A DNA stretch of 64,000 bases from Stigmatella aurantiaca. GTDB lineage: Bacteria; Myxococcota; Myxococcia; Myxococcales; Myxococcaceae. The DNA lies in NCBI RefSeq assembly GCF_900109545.1, contig NZ_FOAP01000002.1, positions 372,001 through 436,000 on the forward strand, in the 5' to 3' direction. The position numbers and the translations under genes are program-made. This document shows positions 47,672 through 64,000 of this stretch, one piece after another. Position 1 is the first letter of the stretch; each line of letters opens with the position of its first letter. Below the pieces are notes generated by a model. That model searched no databases and was not told where the DNA came from. It worked only from the letters and a program-made list of their open reading frames with translations.

Positions 47672-49909
47672 ATGCAGCGCCGTCAGGGATGGCTGAAGCA
47701 GGTGTTGAGCGTAGGGATTGGACTTTGGCTGGCCGTGGGCTGTGGGCAGGCCCCGGTGGAGACGGAAGAACAGGCGTCGCGCAGCTCGCCGCTCTGGGGC
47801 TCTCAGGCGAGGGCCCGTCTCTCCGCGGGAGGGGAACATTCCCTGGCGGTGCGTCCAGATGGCACCGTGTGGGCCGCGGGGGGTAACACCTACGGCCAGT
47901 TGGGCGATGGCACCACGAGCAGCCGCTCGGTGCCTGGGGCAGTGCAAGGCTTGAGCGGGGTGGTGGCCGTGGCGACGGGCCAATACCACTCGGTGGCGTT
48001 GCGCTCGGACGGCACCGTGTGGACCTGGGGGTACAACTACCACGGCCAATTGGGCGATGGCTCCACGACCCACCGCAAGGTGCCCGTGGCGGTGCCCGGG
48101 TTGAGCGGCGTGGTGGCCGTGGCTGCGGGCTACTCCCACTCGCTGGCATTGCTCACGGACGGCACGGTGTGGGCCTGGGGCTACAACGGCGCCGGCCAGC
48201 TCGGAGATGGCACCACGACCCACCGCAAGGTGCCTGGGGCGGTACCAGGCTTGAGCGGGGTGGTGACCGTGGCGGCGGGCCAATACCACTCGTTGGCGGT
48301 GCGCTCGGACGGCACCGCGTGGACCTGGGGAGACAACGCAAACGGCCAGTTGGGCGATGGCACCACGAGCACCCGCAAGGTGCCTGGGGCGGTGCCCGGG
48401 TTGAGCGGCGTGGCGGCCGTGGCGGCGGGCTACGCCTACTCACTGGCGTTGCGCTCGGACGGCACGGTGTGGGCCTGGGGCTACAACAATTCCGGCCAGC
48501 TCGGGGATGGCACCTGGACCGAGCGCAGGACGCCCGTGGTGGTGCCAGGGTTGAGCGGCGTGGTGGCCGTGGCGGCGGGCTTCGGCCACGCGCTGGCGTT
48601 GCTCCCGAACGGCACGGTGTGGACCTGGGGGGCCAACGCCTCCGGCCAGTTGGGCGATGGCACCACGAGCAACCGCAGGGTGCCTCTGGAAGTGCCCGGG
48701 TTGAGCGGGGTGATGGCCCTGGCCGCGGGCCAAGACTCCTCGCAGGTGGTGCGCGCGGACGGCAAGGTGTGGGGCTGGGGGGACAACTCCGCCGGCCAGT
48801 TGGGCACTGGCACCACGAGCAACCGCACGGCGCCCGTGGCGGTGCCAGGGTTGAGTGAGGTGACGGCGGTGGCGGCGGGCTACGCCCACTCGGTGGCGGT
48901 GCGCTCGGACGGCACGGTGTGGGCCTGGGGGGCCAACGCCTCCGGCCAACTGGGGGATGGCACCACGAACCACCGCACGGGGCCTGGGGCGGTACCCGGG
49001 TTGACGGGGGTGGTGGCCGTGGCGGCGGGCTACGCCCACTCGCTGGCCTTGCGCTCGGACGGCACGGTGTGGGCCTGGGGGGATAACACAAACGCCCAAC
49101 TGGGCGATGGCTCCACCCTCCCCCGCACGGCGCCTGGGGCGGTGCCCGGGTTGAGCGGGGTGGTGGCCGTGGCGGCGGGCCAATACCACTCGTTGGCGGT
49201 GCGCTCGGACGGCACCGTGTGGGCCTGGGGCTCCAACACCTCCGGCCAGTTGGGCAATGGCACCTACAGCAGCCGCACGACGCCTCGGGCGGTGCCCAGC
49301 TTGAGCGGGGTGGTGGCCGTGGCGGCGGGCAACAACCACTCGCTGGCGGTGCGCTCGAACGGCACCGTGTGGGCCTGGGGGGCCAACGCCTCCGGCCAGT
49401 TGGGCGATAGCACCACGACCGGCCGCCCGGTACCTGGGGCGGTGCCCGGGTTGAGTGGGGGGGTGGCCGTGGCGGCGGGCTACGCCCACTCGGTGGCGGT
49501 GCGCTCGGACGGCACCGTGTGGACCTGGGGGCTCAATACCTCCGGCCAGCTAGGGGATGGCACCACGAGCAACCGCACGGCGCCTGTGGCGGTGCCTGGG
49601 TTGACCGGGGTGGCCGCCGTGGAGGCGGGCTACGCCTACTCGGTGGCGGTGAGCTCGGACAGCACGGTGTGGGGCTGGGGGGCCAACGCCTCCGGCCAGC
49701 TGGGCGATGGCACCACGAGCAACCGCACGCTGCCTGGGGCGGTGCAAGGGTTGACCGGGGGGGGCATTGTGGCGGCGGGCGACGCTCACGCGCTGGCGGT
49801 GCGCTCGGACGGAACGGTGTGGGCCTGGGGGTCCAACGGCAGAGGCCAGATCAGCGACGGGGGACCTACCTACTCCGAGTACGCGCCCACGCTCTCCTTG
49901 CTGTATTGA
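47672..49909 (+). CDS. RCC1-repeat lipoprotein 1 (14 repeats)
   Basis: The 745-residue protein has a lipoprotein signal (VLSVGIGLWLAVGCG). From about residue 55 it consists of 14 RCC1 units of exactly 50 residues, each reading like HSLAVRSDGTVWAWGxNxxG, QLGDGTTxxRxxP and VxGLSGVxAVAAG. RCC1 folds normally have seven blades, so two successive seven-bladed propellers are likely. Unit 7 is odd (SSQVVRADGKVWGWGDNSAG, then QLGTG). It should be displayed on the cell surface or in the periplasm; the binding partner is unknown. The next gene is a tandem paralogue of identical length. Confidence 0.9.
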   Translation: MQRRQGWLKQVLSVGIGLWLAVGCGQAPVETEEQASRSSPLWGSQARARLSAGGEHSLAVRPDGTVWAAGGNTYGQLGDGTTSSRSVPGAVQGLSGVVAVATGQYHSVALRSDGTVWTWGYNYHGQLGDGSTTHRKVPVAVPGLSGVVAVAAGYSHSLALLTDGTVWAWGYNGAGQLGDGTTTHRKVPGAVPGLSGVVTVAAGQYHSLAVRSDGTAWTWGDNANGQLGDGTTSTRKVPGAVPGLSGVAAVAAGYAYSLALRSDGTVWAWGYNNSGQLGDGTWTERRTPVVVPGLSGVVAVAAGFGHALALLPNGTVWTWGANASGQLGDGTTSNRRVPLEVPGLSGVMALAAGQDSSQVVRADGKVWGWGDNSAGQLGTGTTSNRTAPVAVPGLSEVTAVAAGYAHSVAVRSDGTVWAWGANASGQLGDGTTNHRTGPGAVPGLTGVVAVAAGYAHSLALRSDGTVWAWGDNTNAQLGDGSTLPRTAPGAVPGLSGVVAVAAGQYHSLAVRSDGTVWAWGSNTSGQLGNGTYSSRTTPRAVPSLSGVVAVAAGNNHSLAVRSNGTVWAWGANASGQLGDSTTTGRPVPGAVPGLSGGVAVAAGYAHSVAVRSDGTVWTWGLNTSGQLGDGTTSNRTAPVAVPGLTGVAAVEAGYAYSVAVSSDSTVWGWGANASGQLGDGTTSNRTLPGAVQGLTGGGIVAAGDAHALAVRSDGTVWAWGSNGRGQISDGGPTYSEYAPTLSLLY
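47821..49909 (+). repeat. 150-bp coding tandem array (14 units)
   Basis: The RCC1-coding DNA keeps a strict 150-base period with no insertion or deletion across 14 units. Phrases such as GTGCGCTCGGACGGCAC recur every 150 bases. The array codes for the propeller repeats of the first RCC1 lipoprotein. Confidence 0.9.
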
Positions 49910-50040: not shown

Positions 50041-52278
50041 ATGCAGCGCAGTCCGGGATGGCTGAAGAGGATATTGACGGTAGGGCTTGGGCTTTGGCTG
50101 GCCGTGGGCTGTGGGCAGGCCCCGGCCGAGACGGAAGAACAGGCGGCGCACAGCGCTGCGCTCTGGGGCTCTCAGGCGAGGGCCCGCCTCTCCGCGGGGC
50201 TGGACCATTCCCTGGCGGTGCGTCCCAACGGGACCGTGTGGGCCGCAGGGGATAACACCTACGGCCAGCTGGGCGATGGCACCACGATCAGCCGCTCGGT
50301 GCCTGGGGCGGTGCCAGGCTTGAGCGGGGTGGTGGCCGTGGCCACGGGCCAACACCACTCGTTGGCGGTGCGCTCGAACGGGACGGTGTGGATCTGGGGG
50401 TCCAACTCCTACGGCCAGTTGGGCGATGGCACCTCGCTCAACCGCTCGGTGCCCGTCGCGGTGCCCGGGTTGAGCGGGGTGGTGGCCGTGGCGGCAGGCC
50501 ATTCCCACTCGCTGGCGTTGCTCTCGGACGGCACGGTGCGGACCTGGGGATACAACGACTCCGGCCAGTTGGGGGATGGCACCACGACCCTCCGCAGGGC
50601 GCCCGTGGCGGTGCCAGGCTTGAGCGGGGTGGTGGCCGTGGCGGCGGGCCAATATTACTCGCTGGCGGTGCGCATGGACGGCTCAGTGTGGACCTGGGGG
50701 AACAACGCCTACGGCCAGCTGGGCGATGGCACCACGACCCTCCGCAAGGTGCCTGTGGCGGTGCCAGGCTTGAGCGGAGTGACGGCCGTGGAGGCGGGCC
50801 ATGGCCACTCGCTGGCGGTGCGCTCGGACGGCACGGTGTGGGCCTGGGGGCACAACCTCTACGGCCAGCTGGGCGATGGCACCACCGTCAACCGCACGGT
50901 GCCCGTGGCGGTGCCAGGCTTGAGCGAGGTGGCGGCCGTGGCAGCGGGCCATTCCCACTCGCTGGCGTTGCTCCCGGACGGCACCGTATGGACCTGGGGG
51001 TACAACACCTCCGGCCAGCTCGGGGATGGCACCACCCTCAACCGCAAGGTGCCTGCGGAGGTGCCAGGGTTGAGTGGGGTGATGGCCCTGGCGGCGGGCC
51101 AGTACTCCTCGCAGGTGGTACGCGCGGACGGCAAAGTGTGGGGCTGGGGGGACAACTCCGCCGGCCAGTTGGGCACTGGCACCACGAGCAACCGCACGGC
51201 GCCCGTGGCGGTGCAAGGGTTGAGCGCGGGGGTGGCCGTGGCGGCGGGCGCCGCCCACTCGGTGGCGGTGCGCTCGGACGGCACGGTGTGGGCCTGGGGG
51301 GACAACTCCGCCGGCCAGCTGGGCGATGGCACCACGGGCAACCGCACGGTACCTGGAGCGGTGCCAGGGTTGAGCGCGGTGACAGCCGTGGCGGCGGGCG
51401 TTAGCCATGCGTTGGCGTTGCGCTCGGACGGCACGGTGTGGACCTGGGGGTACAACCTCTACGGCCAGTTGGGGGATGGCACCACCCTCACCCGCACGGT
51501 GCCTGGGGCGGTGCCTGGATTGAGCGGGGTGGTGGCCGTGGCGGCGGGCGCCCACCACTCGCTGGCGCTGCGCTCGGACGGCACCGTGTGGGCCTGGGGG
51601 TACAACGCCTCCGGCCAGTTGGGGAATGGCTTCTACAGCAACCGCACGGTGCCTGGGGCGGTGCCAGGGTTGAGCGGGGTGGTGGCCATGGAGGCAGGCG
51701 ACAGCCACTCGCTGGCGCTGCGCTCGGACGGCACCGTATGGGCCTGGGGGTACAACTCCTCCGGCCAGTTGGGGGATGGCACCACGACTGGCCGCACGGT
51801 GCCTGCGGCGGTGCCCGGGTTGAGCGCGGTGACAGCCGTGGCGGCGGGCGCCCACCACTCGCTGGCGCTGCGCTCGGACGGCACCGTGTGGGCCTGGGGG
51901 CTCAACGCCTACGGCCAATTGGGGGATGGCACCACACTCACCCGCAGGGTGCCTGGGGCGGTGCCCGGGTTGAGCGGGGGGGTGGCCGTGGCGGCGGGCT
52001 ACGGCCACTCGCTGGCGGTACGCTCGGACAACACGGTGTGGGGCTGGGGGGCCAACGGAAGCGGCCAGCTCGGGGAGGGAACCAACAGCAGCCGCACGGC
52101 GCCTGTGGCGGTGCCAGGGTTGAGTGGGGTGGCGGCCATGGCGGCGGGCGACTCTCACTCGCTGGCGGTGCGCTCGGATGGCACGGTGTGGGGCTGGGGG
52201 TCCAACGGAAACGGCCAGATCAGCGATGGGGGACCTACCGACTCCGAATACACTCCCGTTCTCTCCTTGCTGTACTGA
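50041..52278 (+). CDS. RCC1-repeat lipoprotein 2 (14 repeats)
   Basis: The 745-residue paralogue of the preceding gene has the same lipoprotein signal style (ILTVGLGLWLAVGCG) and 14 units of 50 residues. Unit 7 carries the same deviant sequence as in the first copy (VVRADGKVWGWGDNSAG), while many variable loop residues elsewhere differ. Each protein ends with the same distinctive cap, GQISDGGPTxSEY, followed by LSLLY. I chose the ATG at 50041 because the signal peptide is there; the open frame extends upstream to 49519 inside the first gene. The function is unknown. Confidence 0.9.
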   Translation: MQRSPGWLKRILTVGLGLWLAVGCGQAPAETEEQAAHSAALWGSQARARLSAGLDHSLAVRPNGTVWAAGDNTYGQLGDGTTISRSVPGAVPGLSGVVAVATGQHHSLAVRSNGTVWIWGSNSYGQLGDGTSLNRSVPVAVPGLSGVVAVAAGHSHSLALLSDGTVRTWGYNDSGQLGDGTTTLRRAPVAVPGLSGVVAVAAGQYYSLAVRMDGSVWTWGNNAYGQLGDGTTTLRKVPVAVPGLSGVTAVEAGHGHSLAVRSDGTVWAWGHNLYGQLGDGTTVNRTVPVAVPGLSEVAAVAAGHSHSLALLPDGTVWTWGYNTSGQLGDGTTLNRKVPAEVPGLSGVMALAAGQYSSQVVRADGKVWGWGDNSAGQLGTGTTSNRTAPVAVQGLSAGVAVAAGAAHSVAVRSDGTVWAWGDNSAGQLGDGTTGNRTVPGAVPGLSAVTAVAAGVSHALALRSDGTVWTWGYNLYGQLGDGTTLTRTVPGAVPGLSGVVAVAAGAHHSLALRSDGTVWAWGYNASGQLGNGFYSNRTVPGAVPGLSGVVAMEAGDSHSLALRSDGTVWAWGYNSSGQLGDGTTTGRTVPAAVPGLSAVTAVAAGAHHSLALRSDGTVWAWGLNAYGQLGDGTTLTRRVPGAVPGLSGGVAVAAGYGHSLAVRSDNTVWGWGANGSGQLGEGTNSSRTAPVAVPGLSGVAAMAAGDSHSLAVRSDGTVWGWGSNGNGQISDGGPTDSEYTPVLSLLY
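50194..52278 (+). repeat. 150-bp coding tandem array (second copy, 14 units)
   Basis: The same 150-base period and the same number of units as in the upstream array, encoding the propellers of RCC1 lipoprotein 2. Confidence 0.9.
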
Positions 52279-52345
52279 GACAGGCCAAGGCCACCCACCT
52301 GGGAGGTTGGACGCCGGGAAGCCTATCGGTTAGGTTTCCCGGTTG

Positions 52346-53284
52346 ATGCGTCCTTCCGCCTCCGCGTCTGCCCTGCTTCTCCTCCTCGTGGCTCCCTCGG
52401 CCTGGGCCAGGCTGCCGGACGATCGGATCGTGCTCCGGACGCTCAAGCTGTCGGAGCATCCGAGTACCGCCACGCACAACATCCACGTCTCCGGACAGGT
52501 GGTGACGGTCCTCCGGTTTGACCAGGAGGTAGACCCCGCCAAGACGAAGCTCCTGGGGTGGGAAGGCCGGTTCGAGCCGTTGCTCGTTGGGAGCAAGAAG
52601 GTGGTCATCGAGCCGCTTCGCAATCTCGGCCGTGACGAAGGGGTGCCTCTGCTCGTGACGCTCGTGGACGGGACGGAGATCCCGTTCCTGGTGCGGCCGC
52701 CCTGGGACAAGCAGGACCTAGGCTGGACACCCTTCACCGACCATCAGGTCAACGTGTTCAAGGACCCGGATAGCTACAACGCGGTGCTCTCGTCCCTCAA
52801 CGATGCCCTCCAGCGCGAGAGCGAACTCCGCGACGAGAACGAGCGGCTCAAGCGGGAGGAAAAGTCCATCGACCACGCTTACGCGACGCTCCTCTTCAAG
52901 GGGGACGTGAAGAAAACGCCGTTTCGGCGTCAAGCTGTTTACCGTCCGAAGAACGACGACATGGCCATGGTTGTCGAAATCTTTTCGGGTCCCAGGAAGG
53001 CAGCGGTTCTGGTTCACCTGACAAACACCGGCGACGCAGCCCCCTGGACGTTTGATGGTGCCTACGTGACCCGGGACTTCACCAGCCACACGGAAAAACC
53101 CTTCGCTCTTCGTATGGATCGGACCGAACTTGCTCCGGGTCAGTCCGGGAAGATCGCGGTCGTGGTGGACGAAAGCGCCTTCGACCACGAGGGGAAACTC
53201 GTCGACCTCTCCCTCCTGATTTTCCGTGGAGATGGGCTCCTTCAGGTGGCCGTCACAATGGATCACACGCTGATTCGGCAGTAG
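52346..53284 (+). CDS. DUF2381 family exported protein
   Basis: The 312-residue protein starts with a signal peptide (SASALLLLLVAPSAWA). The pattern HNIHVSGQVVTVLRFDQEVD, then LLGWEGRFEPLLVGSKKVVI and, near the end, DLSLLIFRGDGLLQVAVTMD is that of DUF2381, a family largely confined to myxobacteria and often found near serine/threonine kinases. A coiled segment lies at about residues 148-175 (LNDALQRESELRDENERLKR). The ATG at 52346 is preferred over a TTG one codon earlier. A small lipoprotein gene follows two bases after the stop. The role is unknown. Confidence 0.82.
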   Translation: MRPSASASALLLLLVAPSAWARLPDDRIVLRTLKLSEHPSTATHNIHVSGQVVTVLRFDQEVDPAKTKLLGWEGRFEPLLVGSKKVVIEPLRNLGRDEGVPLLVTLVDGTEIPFLVRPPWDKQDLGWTPFTDHQVNVFKDPDSYNAVLSSLNDALQRESELRDENERLKREEKSIDHAYATLLFKGDVKKTPFRRQAVYRPKNDDMAMVVEIFSGPRKAAVLVHLTNTGDAAPWTFDGAYVTRDFTSHTEKPFALRMDRTELAPGQSGKIAVVVDESAFDHEGKLVDLSLLIFRGDGLLQVAVTMDHTLIRQ

Positions 53285-53286
53285 AA

Positions 53287-53787
53287 ATGCCGGTGATGCG
53301 CACCCAGAAACCCCTTCTTCTCGGCACGTCCATTCTCCTTGCGGCATCGCTCGGCTGTTCCACGGCGGGTGGCGTGGCGTTGCGTCGGGATGGCACTCCA
53401 GGCCCTCAAAAATGTTCCGAAGAAGCCCAAAAAATAATGGAGGCGCTGAAGCTCCACGTCGGGGATGCCTCTTTGGTGGAACTTGACGCGAACCAATTGA
53501 GGAGCAAACGCATCACGCTCTACGACGGCCCCATTGAGAGCGTCCTGAAGGAAGAGTTTGGCACGCTTGAGGCGACGACGCGCCTGTACGGACAGGTCTG
53601 GACGAGCGGTCCGCAGGTCGTCATTCGCTACTATGAAGCCCACCCTCCGGATAGCGTGAAACTTCCTATCTGCGCGGTGGCCCGGCTCAGTTACGACCAG
53701 ATGAAGAAACGGCCCGAGTCTCAACCAGGAACCGCCATTCTTGATGGCTCGATCGCGGCGGCCTACGTCGTCGATGCCTTCAGGTAA
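53287..53787 (+). CDS. Small lipoprotein A, DUF2381 partner
   Basis: The 166-residue protein has a lipoprotein-type signal (LLLGTSILLAASLGC) followed by STAGGVALRRDGTPGPQKC. No family is recognised. It is strongly similar along its whole length to the protein encoded at 53950-54435 (shared RLYGQVWTSGPQVVIRYYEA and KPGTAILDGSIAAA-type blocks). The start codon directly follows the DUF2381 stop, so the two are translated as a unit. The ATG at 53296 is an alternative start. Confidence 0.75.
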   Translation: MPVMRTQKPLLLGTSILLAASLGCSTAGGVALRRDGTPGPQKCSEEAQKIMEALKLHVGDASLVELDANQLRSKRITLYDGPIESVLKEEFGTLEATTRLYGQVWTSGPQVVIRYYEAHPPDSVKLPICAVARLSYDQMKKRPESQPGTAILDGSIAAAYVVDAFR

Positions 53788-53789
53788 TG

Positions 53790-53938
53790 CGCTCTACCAC
53801 TCCGGAGCGGTGGTCGCGGACCAGAGTGCTTTTGAAACAGAGACGGGAGAACTCGTGGATCTCGCCCTCCAGATCTTCGGTGAGGATGGGCTCCTCCAGG
53901 TGATGGTGACGATGGAACGCACCCTCATTCAGAAGTAG
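53790..53938 (+). pseudogene. C-terminal remnant of a second DUF2381 gene
   Basis: Immediately after the stop of lipoprotein A an open frame encodes SGAVVADQSAFETETGELVD, then LALQIFGEDGLLQVMVTMER and TLIQK. It matches the last 45 or so residues of the intact DUF2381 protein (VVVDESAFDHEGKLVDLSLL, then FRGDGLLQVAVTMDHTLIRQ). No start or N-terminal part exists, so the rest of a duplicated gene has been deleted. Confidence 0.8.
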
Positions 53939-53949
53939 AAGTGCCGCTC

Positions 53950-54435
53950 ATGCCCGCCCCCAAAGCACTCCTGAGCGCCCTCCTTCTGTTTGCGACATCC
54001 GCCTGCACCACGGCCGGTGGCGTGGCGCTGCGCCCGGACGGCACTCCGGGCGCTCAGGAGTGCCCGGAAGAAGCACTGAAGGCGATGCGCTACATGAGGC
54101 TGCGCGTCGGCGACAGCGCGTTGGTGGAGCTGGATGCGAACCAGATCCGGAGCCGACGCATCACGCTCTACGACGGACCGCTCGAGAGCGTCCTGAAGGA
54201 AGACTTTGGCACGCTGGAGGGGCCTACCCGCTTGTATGGGCAGGTGTGGACGAGCGGGCCTCAGGTCGTCATCCGGTATTACGAGGCGCACCCTCCGGAC
54301 GGCGAGAAGATTCCTCTCTGCGCCGTAGCCCGGCTGGGGGAGGACCAGATGCGGAAGCGGCCCGAGTCGAAGCCAGGAACCGCTATCCTCGACGGCTCGA
54401 TCGCGGCTGCCTTCGCCGTTGATGCATTCCGGTAA
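53950..54435 (+). CDS. Small lipoprotein B, paralogue of A
   Basis: This protein of about 161 residues (164 if the GTG at 53941 is used) has a lipoprotein signal (LLSALLLFATSAC). It is a close paralogue of lipoprotein A, with the same segments VELDANQIRSRRITLYDGPL and YGQVWTSGPQVVIRYYEAHP. It stands just after the DUF2381 remnant at the same relative spacing that lipoprotein A has to the full DUF2381 gene, so it came from tandem duplication of a two-gene unit. Confidence 0.75.
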   Translation: MPAPKALLSALLLFATSACTTAGGVALRPDGTPGAQECPEEALKAMRYMRLRVGDSALVELDANQIRSRRITLYDGPLESVLKEDFGTLEGPTRLYGQVWTSGPQVVIRYYEAHPPDGEKIPLCAVARLGEDQMRKRPESKPGTAILDGSIAAAFAVDAFR

Positions 54436-54512
54436 AGAGTTCGACCGCTCAGGGCCAGCGAGCATTCGAAGCTCGCTGCTCTCCTGACAGCCCGCGAGGA
54501 CTCGCGAGTCAT

Positions 54513-54541
54513 TTGACGCGGCGCGGAATCTTGCACATTTA
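54513..54541 (+). promoter_or_regulatory. Candidate promoter of the Kelch/Ig gene
   Basis: TTGACG at 54513-54518 and CATTTA at 54536-54541 are 17 bases apart, ending about 57 bases before the ATG at 54599. The -35 match is good, the -10 match moderate. Confidence 0.35.
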
Positions 54542-54598
54542 CATGGACAGTGCTGAACCCCGCGTGCTGTCTGTCGATCCGGCTTCACAGGGGGACAT

Positions 54599-57500
54599 AT
54601 GCTTCGACTCGATGGGACAGGTTCGCCGCCACACTCCTCGTCCAACCACCGTCAGCAGGGGAGTGGCGCAGCGCTCCTGAGGCCTCTGGCGGCAGCGCTC
54701 GTCCTCGTCATCGGCTCGTGCAGCCCGCCGGCCCCGGAGGCCTCGCTCGAACCGGTTGTGCAACGCCCCGCCGAGCTCGCTGCCGCTCCCGGCTGGATTC
54801 CCGCGGGCTCGATGACCCAGCCTCGCTTCAATCACACGGCCACGCTGCTCCCTGATGGCAAGGTGCTCGTCGCCGGCGGCAGCGCCTCCAGCGGCACCGC
54901 CCTCGTCAACGCTGAACTCTACGATCCGGCCACCGGGACCTGGACTGCCACGGGCTCTCTGGCCGAGGGGCGCTCCCTGCACACGGCCACCCTGCTGCCC
55001 AATGGCAAGGTGCTCGTCACCGGGGGCGTCGGCAACGTCCACGTCTACCATGCCAGCGCCGAGCTGTATGACCCGGCCACCGGGACCTGGACTGCCACGG
55101 GCTCCCTCTCCCGGACTCGCTACGGGCACACGGCCACGCTGCTCCCTGATGGCAAGGTGCTCGTCGCCGGCGGCAGCGCCTCCAGCGGCACCGCCCTCGT
55201 CAACGCTGAACTCTACGATCCGGCCACCGGGACCTGGACTGCCACGGGCTCCCTCTCCCAGGCGCGTAACGGGCACACGGCCACACGGCTCTCCAATGGC
55301 AAGGTGCTCGTCGCCGGCGGCCTCAACATCTCCTCCAACGCCGTCGTCAGCGCCGAGCTCTACGATCCGGCCGCCGGAACCTGGACCGCCACGGGGGCAC
55401 TGGCCCAGGCTCGCTCCCACCACACGGCCACGGTGCTGACCGATGGCAAGGTGCTCGTCGCGGGCGGTTCCAATCCCTTCTCCAGCGTCCCCACTCACGG
55501 CGAGGTGTATGACCCGGCCACCGGCACCTGGACGCTCACACGCCCGCTGAATCAGGCTCGCTCCGGGCACGCGGCCACGCCGCTGCCCGACGGCAGGGTG
55601 CTCATCGCTGGCGGCTCGACCAGCGTCGAGGTCTACGAGCCGGCCACTGGCTCCTGGACTCCCCTGCGCCCGCTCCTCTGGCCTCGCTCCGGCATCACGG
55701 CCACGCTGCTGCCCAATGGCAAGGTGCTCGTCGCGGGCCGGAGCAACGACGAGTTCATCCGCCCCGACGCCGAGCTGTACGACGCCACCACCGGTGAGTG
55801 GGCTGATACCAACGCACTGGCTCAGGCGCGCGTGGACCCTACGGCCACCCTGCTGCCCCGGGGCAAGGTGCTCGTGGCCGGCGGTGACTTCAACGGCACT
55901 ACCGTGGCCCAGGCCGAGATCTACGAGCCGGCCAGCGGCACCTGGATCGGCACGGCACCTCTGGGCCAGGCCCGCTCCCGTCACACGGCCCTGTTGCTGC
56001 CGCAGGGCAAGGTGCTCGTGGCTGGTGGCCACTCGGGCACCCACTCCCTCACCAGCGCCGAGTTGTACGAGCCCGCCACCGGCGCCTGGGCTCCCACGGG
56101 TCCCCTGGCCCAGGCGCGTGAGCGTCACACGGCCACGCTGCTGCCCGACGGCAAGGTGCTCGTCTCGGGTGGACTCGATGGCACCCACTCCCTCACCAGC
56201 GCTGAACTCTATGATCCGGCCACTGGAACCTGGGCTCCCACGGGCCCCATGACCCAGGCTCGCTCCAGCCACACCGCCACGCTGCTGCCGGACGGCAATG
56301 TGCTCGTGGCCGGAGGCCTCGATGGCACGAACTTCCTTGCCACCGCCGAGGTGTACAACCCCGTCACCGGCACCTGGACCGCCACAGGCTCCCTGGTCCA
56401 GGCGGGTGCTCACCACACGGCCACGCTGCTGCCCGAGGGCAAGGTGCTCGTCGCGGGCGGCGACTTCAACAGCGCGCCCCTCCCCCGCGCCGAGCTCTAC
56501 GATCCGGCCGCTGGAACCTGGAGCTCCACGGGCTCCCTGGCCCAGGCCCGTGAACACCACACGGCCACGCTGCTGCACGATGGCAGGGTGCTCGTCACGG
56601 GCGGCGGTGGCGGCGCCAACACCTCCCTGGCCAGCGCCGAGGTGTACACGCCAGGCACCGGCGCCTGGGCCCCCGCGCGCGCGCCCGCCCAAGCTCGCTC
56701 TCACCACACGGCCACCCTTCTGCCCGATGGCAAGGTGCTCATCGGCAGCGGCCAGTTCAACAACGCGCCCCTCTCCGGGGCCGAGCTCTACGATCCGGTC
56801 ATTGGCACCTGGTATCTCACCGGCCGCATGGGCCAGGCTCGCGCCTCCTACGCGGCCACGCTGCTGACCGATGGCAGGGTGCTCGTCACGGGCGGCTCCT
56901 CCAGCGGTACCTCCCTCCGCAGCGCCGAGCTCTACAATCCAGCCACCAGTACCTGGACCACCACGGGCCCGATGGCCCAGGCCCGCTCCCAGCACACGGC
57001 GACGCTGCTGCCCGATGGCAGGGTGCTCGTCGTCGGCGGCGATGGCACCTACAACAGTCCGTCCACCGCCGAGGTGTACAACCCGATTACCGGCACCTGG
57101 GCCCCTGCGGGCTCCCTGGCCTTGTCTCGCTACAATCACACGACCACGGTGCTGGACAATGGCAGGGTGCTCGTCGTCGGGGGATTCAGCTACCTCGCCA
57201 GCGCCGAGGTGTACGACCCGGTTACCGGCCTCTGGGCTCCCACGGGAGCACCGGCACAGGAGCGTGAGGGTCACACGGCCACCCTTCTGCCCGATGGCAA
57301 GGTGCTCGTCATCGGGGGAGGGAGCTACGTTATCGGCGCCGAGGTGTACAACCCGGTTACCGGCACCTGGACTCCCACCGTCCCCATGGCGCAGCCTCGC
57401 TCCGACCACACGGCCACGCTACTGACCAATGGCAAGGTGCTCGTCGCCGGGGGAGGGAGCAATGGCGGCCCCGTTGGCGTCGAGGTGTACGACCCGGCCA

Positions 57501-60340
57501 CCGGCACCTGGGCCTCCACGGGTGCAATGACCGAGGCTCGCATTAGACACACGGCCACGCTGCTGGCTGACGGCAAGGTGCTCGTCGCTGGCCGCGGAAA
57601 CCTCCACTACGGCGTCATCCCCAGCACCGAGGTGTACGATCCAGCCACCGGCACCTGGGCCCGCATGGTTCCCATGACCCAGGCTCGCGAGGACTACAGA
57701 CTCATCCTGCTACTCGACGGCAGGGTGCTCGCTGCCGGCGGTGCCGACACTGTGGCTACCGCTGAGGTGTACCAGCAGCAGGGGGCCAACCCTGCCTGGC
57801 GGCCCGTCATTGCGGGCATCTTCCCCAGCAGCCCGCTGGAGGCCAGGAGTGTCTTTACCGTGCACGGCTCACGCTTGCGCGGGCTGTCAGAGGCGAGCAG
57901 CGGCACCACCTCGTCCTCGTCGAGCGACGCCCCCCTGCTGACCCTGAGCGATCTCTCGCGAGGCCGGGTGCTGGCCTTGCCCTTCCAGGACTTTTCACGC
58001 ACGCACATCACCGCCCAGCTCCCCCCGCTGCCCGCCGGTAAGTACCTGCTGTCCGTCAGCGTCAACGGGCTAGCCGCCACCACGGTGCTCGACATCGCCG
58101 CAGAGCCGGACACCACGCTGCCCACGGTGACACTCACCGAGCCGGCCGAGGGCGCGACGCTGACTGGGACCGTGACTGTCTCGGCCACAGCCCTGGACGA
58201 CAGCGCTGTCACCCGCGTCGAGTTCTACGACGGCAACACGCTGCTGGGGGCAGACACAGTCCCCCCCTTCAGCCTCTCCTGGAACACGAGGACGGCGGCC
58301 AATGGCCCCCACCTGCTCACGGCGAAGGCCTTTGACACCGTGGGGCAGCCGGTAACCTCGACCGGAGTGAATGTGACGCTGAACAACGATCTGACCCCGC
58401 CCACCGTGGCCATCTCCGCCCCCGCGGCGGGCGCCACCGTGACGGGCACCGTGACCGCCACCGCGACAGCCACGGACAACCGGTACGTCGACTACGTCGA
58501 CTTCCATGACGGTGCCAGGCGGCTGTGCCGCGCCTACTGGACCCCGTACACCTGCGACTGGAACACGCGCTCAGGGCCCAACGGTTCTCGCACGCTCATC
58601 GTGAAGGCGTATGACTACGCAGGCAATGAGGGCGTCGCCACGGTGACGGTGACGGCCACCAACGAGCTCACGCTCACGGTGGCGCTCACCGCTCCAGCCA
58701 AGGGCGCGACGCTGGCCGGCATCGTCTCCCTCACGGCCACGGCCAGCAACGCTCTGGGGGGCATCTCCCGGGTGGAGTTCTTCGTGGGCAGCACGCAGGT
58801 GGGCTCCGACACCACGGTCCCGTACTCCATCAGCTACGACACCCGGAATCTGCCCAACGGCGGCCAGACGCTCACGGCCCGGGTGTATGACACCCTGGGC
58901 AATGTGGCGGACTCCGCCCCCGTGAACGTGACCTTCAACAATGACTTCCTCCCGCCCACGGTGACACTCACCGCGCCAGCGGCGGGCGCGACGCTCTTGG
59001 GGACCGTGGCCCTCTCGGCCACAGCCTCCGACAACTTCGCGGTCACCCGGGTCGAGTTCTACGACGGAGCGATGCTGCTACAGACGGTCACCGCCGCTCC
59101 CTATGGCATCTCCTGGGACACGAGGACCGCGCCCAATGGTGCCCACGTGCTCACCGCGAAGGCTTATGACGCCGTGGGACACTCCACCACCTCGGCCGGA
59201 GTGAGCGTGACGCTGAACAACGATCGGGTCGCACCTACCGTGGCCTTCTCCGCCCCCGCGGCAGGAGCCACGGTGAGTGGCACCCTCACCCTGAGGGCAA
59301 CCGCCACGGACAACGTGGCCGTCACCCGCGTCGAGTTCCATGACGGCAGCACCCTGTTGAGCACCGACACCTCCGCGCCCTACACCTATAGCTGGAACAC
59401 GCTCACGAGCCCCAACGGGGAGCACCTGCTCATGGCGAAGGCGTATGACGCCACGGGGAACATCGGCATCGCCGAGGTGGCGGTGACGGTGAACAACGAC
59501 TTCACCCCGCCCACCGTGACACTCACCGCGCCGGCCGAAGGCGCCACGGTGAGCGGCACCCTCTCTCTTGCGGCGACGGCCAGTGACGACCGGGCCCTGA
59601 CCAAGGTGGCCTTCTTCGTCGGTAACACCCAGGTGGGCGTGGACACCGCGCCGTCCTACACCTTCAGCTACAACACCCGGAACCTGCCCAACGGAGCCCA
59701 TGTCCTCACCGCCAAGGCCTATGACGCCGCGGGCAACGTGGGCACCTCCGCTCCGGTGAACGTCACCTTCGAGAATGACTTCACCCCGCCCACGGTGACA
59801 CTCACCGCGCCGGCCGAGGGCGACACGCTCACCGGCACCGTCGTCCTCTCGGCCACCGCCAGTGCCGACCGAGCCCTGAGCAGGGTGGCCTTCTTCGTGG
59901 GCACCACCCAGGTGGGGAGCGACAGCACAGCGCCCTACTCCTACAGCTACAACACCCGGGGCCTGTCCAATGGAGCCAAGGTCCTCACCGCCAAGGCCTA
60001 TGACAGCCTGGGCAATGTGGGCACCTCCGCTCCGGTGAACGTCACGTTCTCCAATGACCTTACCGTGCCGACGACGTCCCTCACTTCGCCGGCCAGTGGC
60101 TCCACGGTCTCTGGCGTGGTGCAGATCGAAGCGATCGCGAGTGACGGCCAGAGCACCATCGCCAAGGTGGACTTCTACCAGGGCGCCCTGCTGCTGGGCA
60201 CCGACACCACAGCGCCATACTCCTGGTCCTGGGACACCACCAAGGCCTCCACTGGCAACCAGACGCTGAAGTCACGGGCGTGGGATGCGGCCGGCAACTC
60301 GGCCTACAGCTCTAATGTCACGGTGACAGTGACTCGCTAG
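54599..60340 (+). CDS. Giant Kelch-repeat plus Ig-like surface lipoprotein
   Basis: The 1913-residue protein has a lipoprotein-like signal ([12 protein letters not shown] at about residues 31-42). I count 21 Kelch units of about 49 residues ([16 protein letters not shown] ... [15 protein letters not shown]) over residues 65-1058. An E-set/TIG-like linker domain (about 1065-1165) follows, then eight Ig-like units of about 92 residues ([20 protein letters not shown] ... VTRVEFYDG) to the end. The start has GGGGGAC at proper spacing. This architecture suits adhesion or carbohydrate binding at the cell surface; no ligand is known. The long open frame on the opposite strand is an artefact of the repeat and GC content. 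Confidence 0.9.
54833..55251 (+). repeat. 125-bp perfect duplication between Kelch units 1 and 3
   Basis: Bases 54833-54957 are identical to 55127-55251 (offset 294, i.e. two Kelch units). The intervening unit is divergent. Such perfect identity among otherwise variable units indicates recent duplication or gene conversion. Confidence 0.85.
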
Positions 60341-60359
60341 CCCGCCGCTCCGGTGAACA

Positions 60360-60380
60360 GGGCTGGCTCCAGTCCAGCCC
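60360..60380 (+). terminator. Hairpin after the Kelch/Ig gene
   Basis: GGGCTGG (60360-60366) and CCAGCCC (60374-60380) form a perfect 7-bp stem with a 7-base loop, starting 20 bases after the stop codon. No T-run follows, so its role as terminator is only probable. Confidence 0.4.
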
Positions 60381-60425
60381 ATGTCGCGAAGGAGGCCGAG
60401 TGGAGCCAGCGTGAGTGGACGATGA

Positions 60426-60551
60426 CAACCAACGCAGAGACGGCAAAGAGTACGAGCATGGCAGGAGGAAGGAGGCCCGCAGAGCACCTTCGCGGAGTTC
60501 TTGGAGCAAGTCCTGCGCACTCGGAGAGGCCTCTACTGGCTGGGGGAATAG
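60426..60551 (+). pseudogene. Degenerate reading-frame tail upstream of the MazF-like gene
   Basis: In the frame that stops at 60549-60551 the sequence reads STFAEFLEQVLRTRRGLYWL and ends in GE, with GC-rich third positions like a real gene. It has no start and an in-frame stop at 60423. It may be the end of a decayed gene, possibly a lost antitoxin or other neighbour. A different frame encodes a 47-residue ORF (60422-60565) whose TGA overlaps the toxin ATG, but its third positions do not look coding. Confidence 0.3.
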
Positions 60552-60561
60552 CGAGCACCCA

Positions 60562-60957
60562 ATGAAGACGGATACAGGAGAGCATCCAGGCACACCTCCC
60601 GTGAGAATCCACCGCGGAGATATCTTCTGGCTCGGGCCCGATGACTCAAGGGGCCCTGTCCCGGCTTATTCCCATCCCCACGTGGTGGTTCAGGACGACG
60701 TCTTCAACCACTCGCGCATCACCACCGTGGTCGTATGCGCACTGACGTCGAACCTGCACCGGGCCACCGAGCCAGGAAACGTTCTGCTGGAGGTGGGCGA
60801 AGGAAACCTTCCCAAGCAGAGCGTGGTGGTCGTCTCGCAGATCTCATCGGTCGACAAGGCCCGCCTGGGTGAACGCATCGGGTCCCTGTCCAGCACGCGA
60901 GTGGACCAGATTCTGGCTGGTCTGCGCTTCCAGCAGGTGTCGTTCTTCAACCGGTAG
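60562..60957 (+). CDS. MazF/PemK-family endoribonuclease toxin
   Basis: The 131-residue protein has the PemK/MazF fold signature: RIHRGDIFWLGPDDSRGPVP, SHPHVVVQDDVFNHSRITTV, ALTSNLHRATEPGNVLLEVG, and the C-terminal VSQISSVDKARLGERIGSLS. MazF enzymes cut mRNA at short sequences and stop growth. A GTG at 60601 (VRIHRG) is an alternative, shorter start. No recognisable MazE-type antitoxin precedes it; Myxococcus also has a solitary MazF controlled by an unrelated regulator. The last 50 or so bases of the gene are duplicated at 61.82 kb. Confidence 0.87.
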   Translation: MKTDTGEHPGTPPVRIHRGDIFWLGPDDSRGPVPAYSHPHVVVQDDVFNHSRITTVVVCALTSNLHRATEPGNVLLEVGEGNLPKQSVVVVSQISSVDKARLGERIGSLSSTRVDQILAGLRFQQVSFFNR

Positions 60958-60960
60958 CTA

Positions 60961-61037
60961 ACCCGATACGCCGCCGTGGACGGCCCGGGCGTGGCGCGCG
61001 AGGCGGATCCGGCGCTCAACCTGGAGGTTCTGGGTCG
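60961..61037 (+). pseudogene. Fragment of a TIM44/zinc-ribbon paralogue
   Basis: Starting just after the toxin stop, one frame reads RYAAVDGPGVAREADPALNL followed by EVLGR. It corresponds to RHAAPVDGLGEARRADPALN in the protein encoded at 45.6-47.5 kb. Over 58 bases (60976-61033 against 46565-46622) I count 50 identities. It overlaps the last codons of the opposite-strand DUSAM gene. Confidence 0.6.
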
Positions 61038-61804
61038 TCCAAGTACGCGAGTTGCTCCTCGGCGGCACGGCGGAATCTCGGGACAACTTCCACTGCCAGC
61101 CAGTCGCGAATTTGCTGGCGTGCCCCTTCGAGATCGCCAGCGTCCTGCAATTCCGCCATCCGGTCCATGGCGCTCTCAAGCCGGTCTGAGGCCTCATGGA
61201 GGCGCCCCATGATCTGCCCGAGAAGCGCCCCTGCGCGCTCAGGGCTTGCCAGAGCCTCTTCCGTCTCGGCCTCGCTCATGCCCACGTCAGCGGCGGACCG
61301 TCGCAGGAAAGTGCGCATTCCCTCGTTGAGTTCCAGTGGGTGCCCTTGCTGAACACGATGCAGAAAGATCGGGACTAGAGCCCGATCGGAGAGCTTCAGA
61401 TCGACCTGTCCGCTCGCGGCAACCGACTTGAGCCGGGTCATCTCGCGGAGCATGGCTTCGGCGCGCTCCCGGTACAGCGGTACAACCTCAACGGAGAGCA
61501 CCTCTTCCATCTGCCTGCACGCACCGTCCAGGTCCCCATCATCCCGGAGGTCATACGCCCGGATTGTGGCCGCGCCGAGTTGGGCTGAGCCCTCACGGAT
61601 GCGACGCCTGATCTCCCCCAGCAGCGAGGTGGCCGTGGGAACACTGCGTAGAGCGTTCTCTGCGTCCTCTGGAGAGAGCGCTACCTCTTCTGCTGACCGC
61701 TGTAAGAGAGCGCGCACCTCGTCCGAAAGTTCGAGCGGTTCACCGCGCTCGATCACGCGCTGTCCCAGGGCGCGAATGGGTTCCCAATCGATCTCACCGG
61801 TCAT
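61016..61804 (-). CDS. Tandem DUSAM-domain protein
   Basis: The 262-residue protein is built of two similar halves. The first runs from IDWEPIRALGQRVIERGEPL and EVRALLQRSAEEVALSPEDA to MEEVLSVEVVPLYRERAEAM. The second runs from LVPIFLHRVQQGHPLELNEG and RRSAADVGMSEAETEEALAS to IRDWLAVEVVPRFRRAAEEQ. This is the DUSAM domain (DUF2379 type) known from Stigmatella and Myxococcus. It is helical and probably mediates protein contacts; the function is unknown. The gene lies between the toxin gene and a copy of the toxin 3' end, on the opposite strand. Confidence 0.82.
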   Translation of the reverse strand: MTGEIDWEPIRALGQRVIERGEPLELSDEVRALLQRSAEEVALSPEDAENALRSVPTATSLLGEIRRRIREGSAQLGAATIRAYDLRDDGDLDGACRQMEEVLSVEVVPLYRERAEAMLREMTRLKSVAASGQVDLKLSDRALVPIFLHRVQQGHPLELNEGMRTFLRRSAADVGMSEAETEEALASPERAGALLGQIMGRLHEASDRLESAMDRMAELQDAGDLEGARQQIRDWLAVEVVPRFRRAAEEQLAYLDDPEPPG

Positions 61805-61817
61805 GGTGGCCTTCTGC

Positions 61818-61870
61818 CCAGATTCTGGCCGGTCTGCGATTCCAGCAGGTGTCGTTCTTCAACCGGTAGC
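61818..61870 (+). pseudogene. Duplicated 3' end of the MazF-like gene
   Basis: These 53 bases match 60906-60958 with two mismatches and encode QILAGLRFQQVSFFNR plus the stop codon. The copy lies just upstream of the DUSAM start codon, in the same orientation as the intact toxin gene, so the two copies flank the DUSAM gene as direct repeats 912 bases apart. Confidence 0.9.
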
Positions 61871-61922
61871 CCCCGTTCCACGTGCGGCACGGCCACGGGA
61901 ACGGGAGCCTGAAACGGCGGTT

Positions 61923-63056
61923 CTAGTTCAGCGCCGTCACCGCGACCTTGGCGGTCGTGCCGTTCTTCTCGGAATCCTGCGAGTAGGCGCCGAGCTTGAA
62001 GTACAGGTCCACGGCACTCCACGACGCGGTGTTGTAGGTGAACGACTTCGACGTGCCGTTGACCGTCACCGTCACCGTGGAGCCCACCAGCTTGATGACG
62101 TAGTCGATGTTCTGCCCCAGCGCGATGCCGCTCTTGATGAGGATCCGCTGCTCGCTGTCCCCGAAGTTCTTCTTCACCCCCATCAAGATGTCGCCGTTCG
62201 TCCAGCGCAGCTTCAGCAGCTCCGAGCCGCCCGTCTGCTCACCATGGATCTGGCCGATGATGATCTGTCCCGTGGCCGGTTGCTGAAGCACCTTCATCGA
62301 CACGGAGAGCGTGCGCGTCACGCCCATGTTCCAGGTGGCCTTCCCTCGCAGCTCCGAGCGGGGATAGTGGGAGTTGGCGGTCGAGCCCGCCCCCGACGGC
62401 ACCGAGAACGTCATCGCCCCGGTCGAGCCGTCCGTGAAGAAGTACTTGTCCGTGTAGGCGTTGATGGGGTCGACCTGCTTGACCTGGAGTGACCCGTCCA
62501 ACGTCTGGAGCCGGTAGCCGGACAGATCGAAGTTCTGTCCCGGCGCCTTGCCCGGATCGAGCGCGGGCGCGGAGCAGTTGCCCGCCCCGTTCGTCCAGAT
62601 CTCCAGCTCCGACAGGCTGACCCAGGTGTTGACGTCGCTACCGGTGCTCAGCACCCGCACGTACCGGGCTGCCCGGCCGCCGAAGCTGTAGGGCTTCAGC
62701 GCCGCCGTCGTGCCGCTGTTCGTGCCGGTGAACACCGTGCTCCAGGTGGTGCCGTCCGCTGACGCCTGGAGCCTGAGGTTGTACTTGCGCGAATCGCCGT
62801 TGTACCAGGCGAGGTTGGCGTAGGCGACCTGGTGGCAACTGCCCAGGTCGTACTGGAGCCATTGCTCGCCTTCGCTGGCGTTCGCCGACCAACGCGTGTT
62901 CAGCCACCCATCGTTCGCGTTGACCGGCAGGTTGGTGTCACTGCCGCTGGCGCTGATGTTCTCATCCGGAATGCCCAGCTTCGTTTGCGCGAGCGCGGGC
63001 ACCGACACCAGCGTGGCCGCCGCGGCGATCAGGAGGGACTGCTTGAGCGTTGGCAT
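61923..63056 (-). CDS. Secreted PL7 alginate-lyase-like enzyme with CBM32/F5-8C module
   Basis: The 377-residue protein has a signal peptide (SLLIAAAATLVSVPALA). A discoidin/CBM32-type module follows (about residues 30-155; NDGWLNTRWSANASEGEQWL, RYVRVLSTGSDVNTWVSLSE). The C-terminal jelly-roll domain (about 175-377) carries the three family-7 polysaccharide lyase motifs: RSELR, QIH and YFKLGAYSQ. It should cleave alginate or a related uronate polymer by beta-elimination outside the cell. It starts 12 bases before the end of nothing else but lies 12 bases after the chitinase stop, so the two secreted glycan-degrading enzymes are likely co-transcribed. Confidence 0.88.
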   Translation of the reverse strand: MPTLKQSLLIAAAATLVSVPALAQTKLGIPDENISASGSDTNLPVNANDGWLNTRWSANASEGEQWLQYDLGSCHQVAYANLAWYNGDSRKYNLRLQASADGTTWSTVFTGTNSGTTAALKPYSFGGRAARYVRVLSTGSDVNTWVSLSELEIWTNGAGNCSAPALDPGKAPGQNFDLSGYRLQTLDGSLQVKQVDPINAYTDKYFFTDGSTGAMTFSVPSGAGSTANSHYPRSELRGKATWNMGVTRTLSVSMKVLQQPATGQIIIGQIHGEQTGGSELLKLRWTNGDILMGVKKNFGDSEQRILIKSGIALGQNIDYVIKLVGSTVTVTVNGTSKSFTYNTASWSAVDLYFKLGAYSQDSEKNGTTAKVAVTALN

Positions 63057-63068
63057 GGCTTCACCCTC

Positions 63069-64000
63069 TCAGCGGATCGAGGAGTCGATGGCGCGCAGCA
63101 GGGACTGCTCGCTGGAGCTGCTCACGTCTCCGGCCAGCTCCCAGATCATGATGCCGCCGTACTGCTTGGCCAGCGTGGCCTTGGCGCGCATCGTCGCCAG
63201 CCCGTTGTACGAGTACTGGGCCCCGTTCACGTTGAGCCAGTCGGTGCTCGGCGCGTTCGAGTAGCTCGCCAGGATGTCCTTGTAGAGCACGTACTTGCTG
63301 CTCGACCCGCCGCAGTTGCCCCAGCAGTACCCATAGAACGGCACGCCGAGGACGATCTTGTCGTTCGCCACGCCCTTGTTCGAATAGAAGTTCAGCGCCG
63401 TCTGCGCCTGCGCGTAGCTGGAGTGCTCGCCCGCGCCCGTCCAGGTGCCCGTGTTGTCGTAGGACATGACGGTGATGAAGTCGAAGGAGCGCAGCGTCGT
63501 GTCCGACATGCCGTGCTGCATCCACTGCGACACGGCCGCCGTCACCGGCAGGCCGCGCGGCCGGGCCTTGGCGATCAGCTTCGCGATGAACGTGTCATAC
63601 ACCGCGCCCATGCGGTCCGGCGCCTCCACGTCCACGTCGATGCCGTCCATGTTGTTGGAGACCACGTAGTTGATGATGTGGTCCACGAAGGCATCCACCC
63701 GGGCAGGCTGGTAGAAAGGCGCGATCCGGTCATCGCCGCCACCGCCGCACAGCGAGGGGAACACCTTCACGCCCTTGGCGTGCGCGGCGTTCACGAACGT
63801 CGCCAGGTCGCTCGCCGGCGCCAGTTGGAGCTGCCCGTTCGCATCGCCCAGGGCGAACGCCAGGTTCACGTGCGTGAGCTTGTCGAAGTCCACCTTGCCC
63901 ACCCAGCTCGCGTAGGAGCCGTACCAGTTCGGCAGGTAGCCCACGACGCGCTTCCGCCCGGTGGGAGGCGGCGTGGTGCCCCCGGACAGGCCGGAGATGG
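63069..64000 (-). CDS. GH18 chitinase, N-terminus beyond the window
   Basis: This glycoside hydrolase family 18 catalytic domain should hydrolyse chitin or related N-acetylglucosamine polymers. The domain starts VVGYLPNWYGSYASWVGKVD. The catalytic DxxDxDxE motif is complete (MDGIDVDVEAP), and the substrate-cleft segments ITVMSYDNTGTW and GGIMIWELAGDVS are present. The frame stays open to the window edge through a Gly/Thr/Pro linker (SGGTTPPPTGRKR), so the gene continues and probably has an N-terminal binding module. The stop is 12 bases before the alginate-lyase-like gene. Confidence 0.93.
   Translation of the reverse strand, partial: ISGLSGGTTPPPTGRKRVVGYLPNWYGSYASWVGKVDFDKLTHVNLAFALGDANGQLQLAPASDLATFVNAAHAKGVKVFPSLCGGGGDDRIAPFYQPARVDAFVDHIINYVVSNNMDGIDVDVEAPDRMGAVYDTFIAKLIAKARPRGLPVTAAVSQWMQHGMSDTTLRSFDFITVMSYDNTGTWTGAGEHSSYAQAQTALNFYSNKGVANDKIVLGVPFYGYCWGNCGGSSSKYVLYKDILASYSNAPSTDWLNVNGAQYSYNGLATMRAKATLAKQYGGIMIWELAGDVSSSSEQSLLRAIDSSIR

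Follow-up and report, generated by a model that had tools for sequence, protein, structure and literature searches.

What sets the number of blades in a long array of propeller repeats? The question is raised by a gene at 54599–60340 (plus strand) in a 64,000-nucleotide stretch of the Stigmatella aurantiaca genome (positions 372,001–436,000 of contig NZ_FOAP01000002.1, assembly GCF_900109545.1; hereafter the window), whose 1913-amino-acid (aa) product carries 21 Kelch units, a TIG domain and eight immunoglobulin (Ig)-like units. We read this product, with a probability of about 0.75, as a lipid-anchored envelope protein whose 21 units form three closed seven-bladed rings, each completed by a W strand handed over from upstream, with the number of units purged to whole rings and the blades renewed by copying that preserves their number. 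The unit counts, the ring-border signals, the predicted model of ring 1 and the exact internal repeat reported below are direct results of the analysis.

The protein opens with a signal peptide and lipobox-like pattern (aa 31–41; 54599–54721, plus strand). Bacterial lipoproteins have a signal peptide with a lipobox Cys, and such a Cys is present here (Cys41); acylation and location are predicted from the sequence. The Kelch array (Kelch_1 of Pfam, 400 bits against a cut-off of 20.1) spans aa 76–1073, with units 1–7 starting at aa 76, 125, 174, 223, 272, 321 and 363, units 8–14 at 411, 459, 507, 555, 603, 651 and 700, and units 15–21 at 748, 796, 844, 889, 934, 981 and 1030; unit 21 is degenerate and lacks the normal final (W) strand. 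It is followed by a TIG (E-set) domain (57803–58075, plus strand; PF01833, 27.4 bits when scanned alone, against a cut-off of 20.9, and 20.3 bits within the whole protein) and by the Ig-like units (58121–60340, plus strand; Big_7 of Pfam, 459 bits, above its cut-off, in eight stretches with eight unit starts). An earlier note on this DNA had described 21 Kelch and eight Ig-like units in one lipoprotein, and the open reading frame (ORF), the Pfam matches and the lipobox all agree with that description. A foreign composition of the gene is not favoured, the GC contents of its Kelch part (70.4%) and TIG-Ig part (67.4%) being near that of the window (68.5%).

Unit numbers in related arrays

Kelch units were counted with a hidden Markov model (HMM) built from the 21 units and then refined with 621 units taken from a first set of relatives, 92 distinct ORFs picked by likeness to the 1913-aa protein among the matches listed. 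The same HMM was applied to a fresh set of 80 regions from genomes not in the first set (about 92 distinct ORFs were picked by eye among the matches listed, and the first 80 of these were used). Groups of units at sequence ends were left out (3/97 in the first set and 3/89 in the fresh set), a gap of 36–80 aa was counted as one missing unit, and a partial match past the last unit was counted as one unit.

The 94 groups of the first set had 7 (47 groups), 14 (33) or 21 units (7), with seven others (2, 3, 6, 6, 6, 8 and 11 units); the 86 groups of the fresh set had 7 (11), 14 (48), 21 (19) or 28 units (1), with another seven off these numbers (4, 6, 11, 12, 13, 18 and 24). Among arrays longer than seven units, multiples of seven account for 40 of 42 in the first set and 68 of 73 in the fresh set, or 108/115 combined, multiples of six for 3/115 and multiples of eight for 2/115. 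When arrays were clustered at 65% identity, 61 of 65 representatives stood at multiples of seven. The longer off-seven arrays of the first set are L107 (11 units, where a stop was noted) and L026 (8 by score, but 7 with an insertion when read by eye); those of the fresh set are L187 (11, where an in-frame stop splits 3 + 11), L147 (18, on a 3.4-kb contig), L179 (24, with a frameshift and four further units in another frame), L230 (12) and L204 (13).

The unit number had been expected to vary between strains, and the similar arrays compared lend this no support: nine of the 11 multi-member groups of similar arrays have a single unit number. A tenth deviates only through an array on a 3.4-kb contig, and the eleventh mixes 21, 14 and 13 units with a frameshifted 24. 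Four further genomes (Spartobacteria, Solibacter, Verrucomicrobia and Chloroflexota) contained complete arrays of 7 (18 arrays) and 14 units (3), and others of 2, 2, 4, 5 and 6; this count includes L054–L057, which are partly in the first set too, and leaves out eight arrays at sequence ends. The Ig type of the 1913-aa protein occurs in the ORFs of 7 of 173 Kelch arrays, with 1, 1, 2, 2, 4, 8 and 9 Ig units, too few to serve as a contrast. One frame of 2734 aa, L082 (G003), has about 35 Kelch units, in apparent blocks of 14 + 7 + 14 by eye.

Ring structure and ring borders

AlphaFold2, given ring 1 in an alignment with seven others (the array's own rings 2 and 3, a pair from L054 and one each from L055, L056 and L058), returned a closed ring of 28 strands with a predicted local distance difference test (pLDDT) score of 93.0 and a predicted template modelling (pTM) score of 0.91. 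Ring 1 (54788–55792, plus strand) comprises a lone W strand, from aa 64, and units 1–7 up to the final loop, as placed by the unit map, the in-register ring alignment and this model. Ring 2 (55790–56803, plus strand) would take the W strand of unit 7 and units 8–14, by alignment with ring 1 and with its border placed from family signals, and ring 3 (56801–57784, plus strand) would take the W strand of unit 14 and units 15–21, by alignment with ring 1. The closed ring of four-stranded blades thus comes from the model for ring 1 and from alignment only for rings 2 and 3. The earlier proposal of three seven-bladed Kelch propellers is well supported by the array counts, the border signals and the ring-1 model, counts and border signals bearing indirectly on the question of three rings in the 21-unit chain.

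We propose that the chain opens with a lone W strand and that every ring would borrow the W strand of its seventh blade from the sequence ahead of it: ring 1 would be closed by the N-terminal W strand, ring 2 by that of unit 7 and ring 3 by that of unit 14, and unit 21 would need none. If W strands are handed over in this way in the real chain, the ring-to-ring border would fall at the pre-W loop of units 7 and 14, since this loop must then link the rings. The two proposed hinges lie at 55781–55801 in unit 7 (DATTGEW, where the consensus is DPATGTW) and at 56792–56812 in unit 14 (DPVIGTW), both on the plus strand and both placed by column analysis of related arrays. Incomplete rings would fold poorly, and selection against them may be what has purged most other unit numbers.

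A W residue stands 7–13 residues ahead of unit 1 in 77/87 multiple-of-seven arrays of the first set and 64/79 of the fresh set (upstream control, 3 and 8), and the last unit of arrays ends ahead of its own W strand. At units 7k (7, 14 and so on) the consensus of the pre-W loop is lost and the W retained: across 32 arrays with 14 or 21 units each (36 units 7k against 408 others) columns 34–37 differ with p from 1e-4 to 3e-8, and columns 13, 19, 30 and 39 more weakly. With columns 34–37 fixed, the units 7k of 49 fresh arrays (n = 67) scored 2.10 matches out of 4, where the six other positions scored 2.66–3.04, and none of 5000 within-array permutations reached the observed value; column by column, the fresh set was strong at 36–39, weak at 34 and silent at 35.

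Likeness between units independently follows the same borders. Across 81 arrays, two units of one ring resemble each other more than two equally spaced units from different rings (mean difference 0.015, p = 8e-19), and in each set this within-ring likeness is greatest at the true phase (0.0209 and 0.0175). Periods of 8 and 9 gave 0.017 and 0.013 against 0.0188 for 7, their values coming from phases that likewise place a border between units 7 and 8. Within the rings of arrays of 14–28 units we also saw that units 1 and 7 (spacing 6) have a likeness of 0.0135, against -0.0015 and 0.0024 at spacings 4 and 5; this could come from ring closure, which makes them neighbours, or from common border features.

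Several results weigh against three rings of seven with these borders. The array modelled as a single sequence (aa 58–1159) gave an unusable prediction (pLDDT 45.9, pTM 0.31). The segment modelled as ring 1 had been chosen in the proposed phase, and its closure is therefore no proof of the borders. Counted without gap filling, just 49 of 70 chains above seven units in the fresh set stood at multiples of seven, and the gap-filling rule was written after these raw counts were known. L230 has 12 units, L204 has 13 and L174 has 7 + 6, and the first two counts look genuine on reading. Columns 30 and 42 also deviate at units 7k in the fresh set; the 21-unit arrays alone are noisy, positions 13 and 18–20 being as low as 7 and 14 for the loop signal, and in them neighbour likeness at units 7–8 is not low. 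Sequence-based ranking of solved structures, moreover, places six-bladed Kelch domains on top. Two of the three exceptional arrays are among the most internally identical of all 180 (L204 ranks first and the six-unit array of L174 sixth, with L230 65th), as if the count were enforced after amplification.

The 125-bp repeat and the locus

Units 1 and 3 share an exact repeat of 125 bp (54833–54957 and 55127–55251, plus strand), the next longest in the gene being 40 bp. Their DNA identity is 93.9% against a mean of 68.0% (standard deviation 5.6) for all unit pairs, and no pair in 2000 column permutations matched their identity run (p = 0.0005). The earlier note had thus seen correctly that these two units share 125 bases while the others diverge. 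It had ascribed this to recent conversion or slippage; recent copying stands, on the exact repeat and the permutation test, and a distance of two units between the copies, in an array that is still 21 units long, would suit conversion better than slippage. The tract looks like the product of number-keeping copying, presumably conversion. Its donor was most likely inside the gene itself, since the closest copy of the tract with its flanks elsewhere in the genus genomes is only about 74–75% identical.

Among 173 arrays the longest exact repeat has a median of 30 bp, and 125 bp ranks second to 686 bp in L169. That repeat, in a 21-unit array of G169, is internal, with a spacing of about six units. 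The 40 longest repeats listed are spaced by about one unit in 23 cases, about two units in nine and seven units in none. That sevens persist despite such repeats would speak for number-preserving copying more than for unequal exchange. Neighbouring units are homogenised (likeness residual at offset 1, +0.017, p = 6e-12; 81 arrays). Whole-ring duplication was considered as the origin of the sevens and rejected, likeness at offset 7 being near background in the same 81 arrays; the mean residual there is -0.0006 against -0.0049 at offsets 4–6 and 8–10 (p = 0.04), and an old whole-ring duplication may have contributed. In our reading, blades would renew by copying at constant number, as in units 1 and 3, and mostly within a single ring.

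A search for related loci returned four genome loci and one viral contig. One relative, the protein of a 1690-aa frame in G002 (L052), is the only one within the sets examined with the full architecture; it has the same order of parts (signal, Kelch, TIG, Ig) and is 64% identical over 847 positions of the TIG-Ig part, and differs in lying at another genomic site and, by HMM, in having 14 Kelch units where the 1913-aa protein has 21, and 9 Ig units where it has 8. Its rings are 47–56% identical to those of the 1913-aa protein, whose own rings are 53–58% identical among themselves. The blades have turned over while the unit number stayed a multiple of seven, since the rings of L052 are no closer to those of the 1913-aa protein than the latter are to each other, though the TIG-Ig parts remain 64% identical.

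In the nearest genome compared (G001) the flanks are 94–95% identical and the whole Kelch gene is absent from the syntenic site: blastn blocks and junction sequences show that the segment 54438–60552 is missing there, with about 121 unrelated bases in its place. The best G001 match to the protein, among the matches listed, is 53% identical over part of the Ig region. What varies relative to this sister genome, with one genome per species, is the presence of the gene. The replacement bases had no match elsewhere in seven genus genomes, and the edges of the 6.1-kb segment share no 10-mer in direct orientation and one in inverted orientation. The segment stops just upstream of the likely start of a PemK/MazF-like toxin gene (60559–60957), which has no obvious antitoxin gene adjoining and has relatives of 79–92% identity in several related genomes. 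Beyond it lies a DUSAM (DUF2379) gene of 262 aa (61016–61804) that in G001 is split into shorter frames, with about 70 bases missing. Upstream of the segment, two similar small genes (53287–54435) follow a DUF2381 gene and have a DUF2381 remnant between them (about 53723–53932); most of the sequence that separates the two genes is missing from G001. No RNA family scored above threshold in 52000–64000. On the minus strand, a 956-aa open frame (54539–57409) overlies the Kelch units and is likely a by-product of GC-rich repeats, because similar antisense frames lie over the repeat genes of L052 and G001.

Ahead of the Kelch gene, within the block common to the window and G001, are two RCC1 propeller genes (47672–49909 and 50041–52278, plus strand, 14 units each), which Pfam confirms as the earlier note had them; for the second, the start is most likely 50041 instead of 49519. 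RCC1 arrays, an unrelated propeller type, count 14 or 7 units in all 11 distinct RCC1 ORFs of the examined loci, which comprise these two and ORFs of L049, L057, L073, L078, L212 and L222; three of the 11 reach 14 or 7 only with a terminal partial unit, and L078 starts at a sequence end. The S. aurantiaca genome has Kelch matches at 13 distinct places and RCC1 matches at at least 20 (both by eye, the latter among 150 matches listed), so that the Kelch gene is one of many propeller genes.

Alternatives, precedents and meaning

Two alternatives concern the rings themselves. The 21 units might be partitioned differently, for example into rings of six or eight blades or into an array that stays partly open. 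The nearest solved relatives by sequence, which also come first in Foldseek E-value order, are the Kelch domains of the KLHL family, KEAP1 and the SAKe designs, which we take to be six-bladed (as we assume the blade numbers of the other Protein Data Bank (PDB) entries compared), and related arrays of 12 and of 7 + 6 units exist. These domains match just about 255–277 of the 335 residues of ring 1 (VIA-align, Z 28.5–29.0), which together with the scarcity of sixes and eights among long arrays and the border signals at units 7k makes another partition very unlikely. By VIA-align the first places go to galactose oxidase and related copper radical oxidases (PDB 9g43, 4unm and 1gof), which match nearly the whole length of ring 1 (Z 33.0–36.0, 319–331 of 335 residues; for 9g43_A, Z 36.0, root-mean-square deviation 2.3 and 320 residues), followed by a glyoxal oxidase (Z 30.2). 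Galactose oxidase also has an E-set-like domain after its propeller, as the 1913-aa protein has its TIG domain after the rings, and an enzyme of this kind might be suspected. The galactose oxidase propeller carries a Cys-Tyr cofactor; the Cys residues of the 1913-aa protein are at 41, 1310 and 1319 only, leaving none in the Kelch rings from which a cofactor could form, and the NCBIfam equivalog GlxA scored 223.7 bits against a cut-off of 800. With three successive rings, eight Ig units and a lipobox as further differences from galactose oxidase, we regard such an enzyme as barely credible.

Three further alternatives were weighed. Descent by itself, in which a few ancestral genes of 7, 14 and 21 units spread without present constraint, would agree with the single number common to most groups of similar arrays; we think it unlikely, because 61 groups out of 65 at multiples of seven are more than a few, adjacent units are homogenised, and the 14-unit L052 shows blades turning over with the number kept at a multiple of seven. 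A polymorphic adhesin or kin-recognition factor with unit numbers varying between strains, as the earlier note had it, draws on the lipobox, the sporadic presence of the gene (missing in G001) and the recent exact repeat, and is equally doubtful given the constant unit number in nine of 11 groups. Repeats are prone to misassembly and the genome is in 61 contigs, so that the 125-bp identity might be an assembly artefact; the copies, in units 1 and 3, have different flanks and are separated by a unit 2 that has diverged, which makes this highly improbable. Three closed rings of seven with handed-over W strands thus remain our preferred reading.

The principle has precedents. A study of repetitive propellers (PMC9218822) describes a continuum of blade numbers biased toward the lineage median, with peaks at 7 and 14 blades for WD40, and amplification blade by blade, no counting system being assumed; in another (PMC6805158), 14 WRAP blades form two seven-bladed rings. 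The 1913-aa protein resembles these in having several rings per chain, and differs in its Kelch lineage and in numbers nearly confined to sevens, up to 28, where PMC9218822 has a continuum between peaks. There, highly repetitive propellers have blades more than 60% identical, by a median and another method; the 21 units here average 57.1% by a column method. What appears new is the near-strict rule of sevens in Kelch arrays that reach four rings, the loop signature at ring borders and the greater likeness of units within a ring, none of which came up in our searches of the open-access literature; by title and abstract these also gave nothing to the point on Kelch in myxobacteria or Myxococcota, or on multiples of seven.

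From fold and signal, the gene most likely encodes a predicted lipid-anchored three-ring binding scaffold with an Ig chain; that the rings would present binding surfaces within the cell envelope while the Ig chain extends away from the cell, we put at even odds. With the border signals, long propeller arrays could be divided into rings from sequence only, ahead of structure prediction, which failed here on the uncut array. A family at 7, 14, 21 and 28 units makes the fixing of blade number directly testable. For the bacterial envelope Kelch arrays counted here, we suggest tentatively, at a little less than even chances, that they hold almost only whole seven-blade rings, at most four per chain, with number-preserving copying largely within rings and changes of number only in steps of seven. 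Unit number in this family seems bound to complete rings instead of drifting freely.

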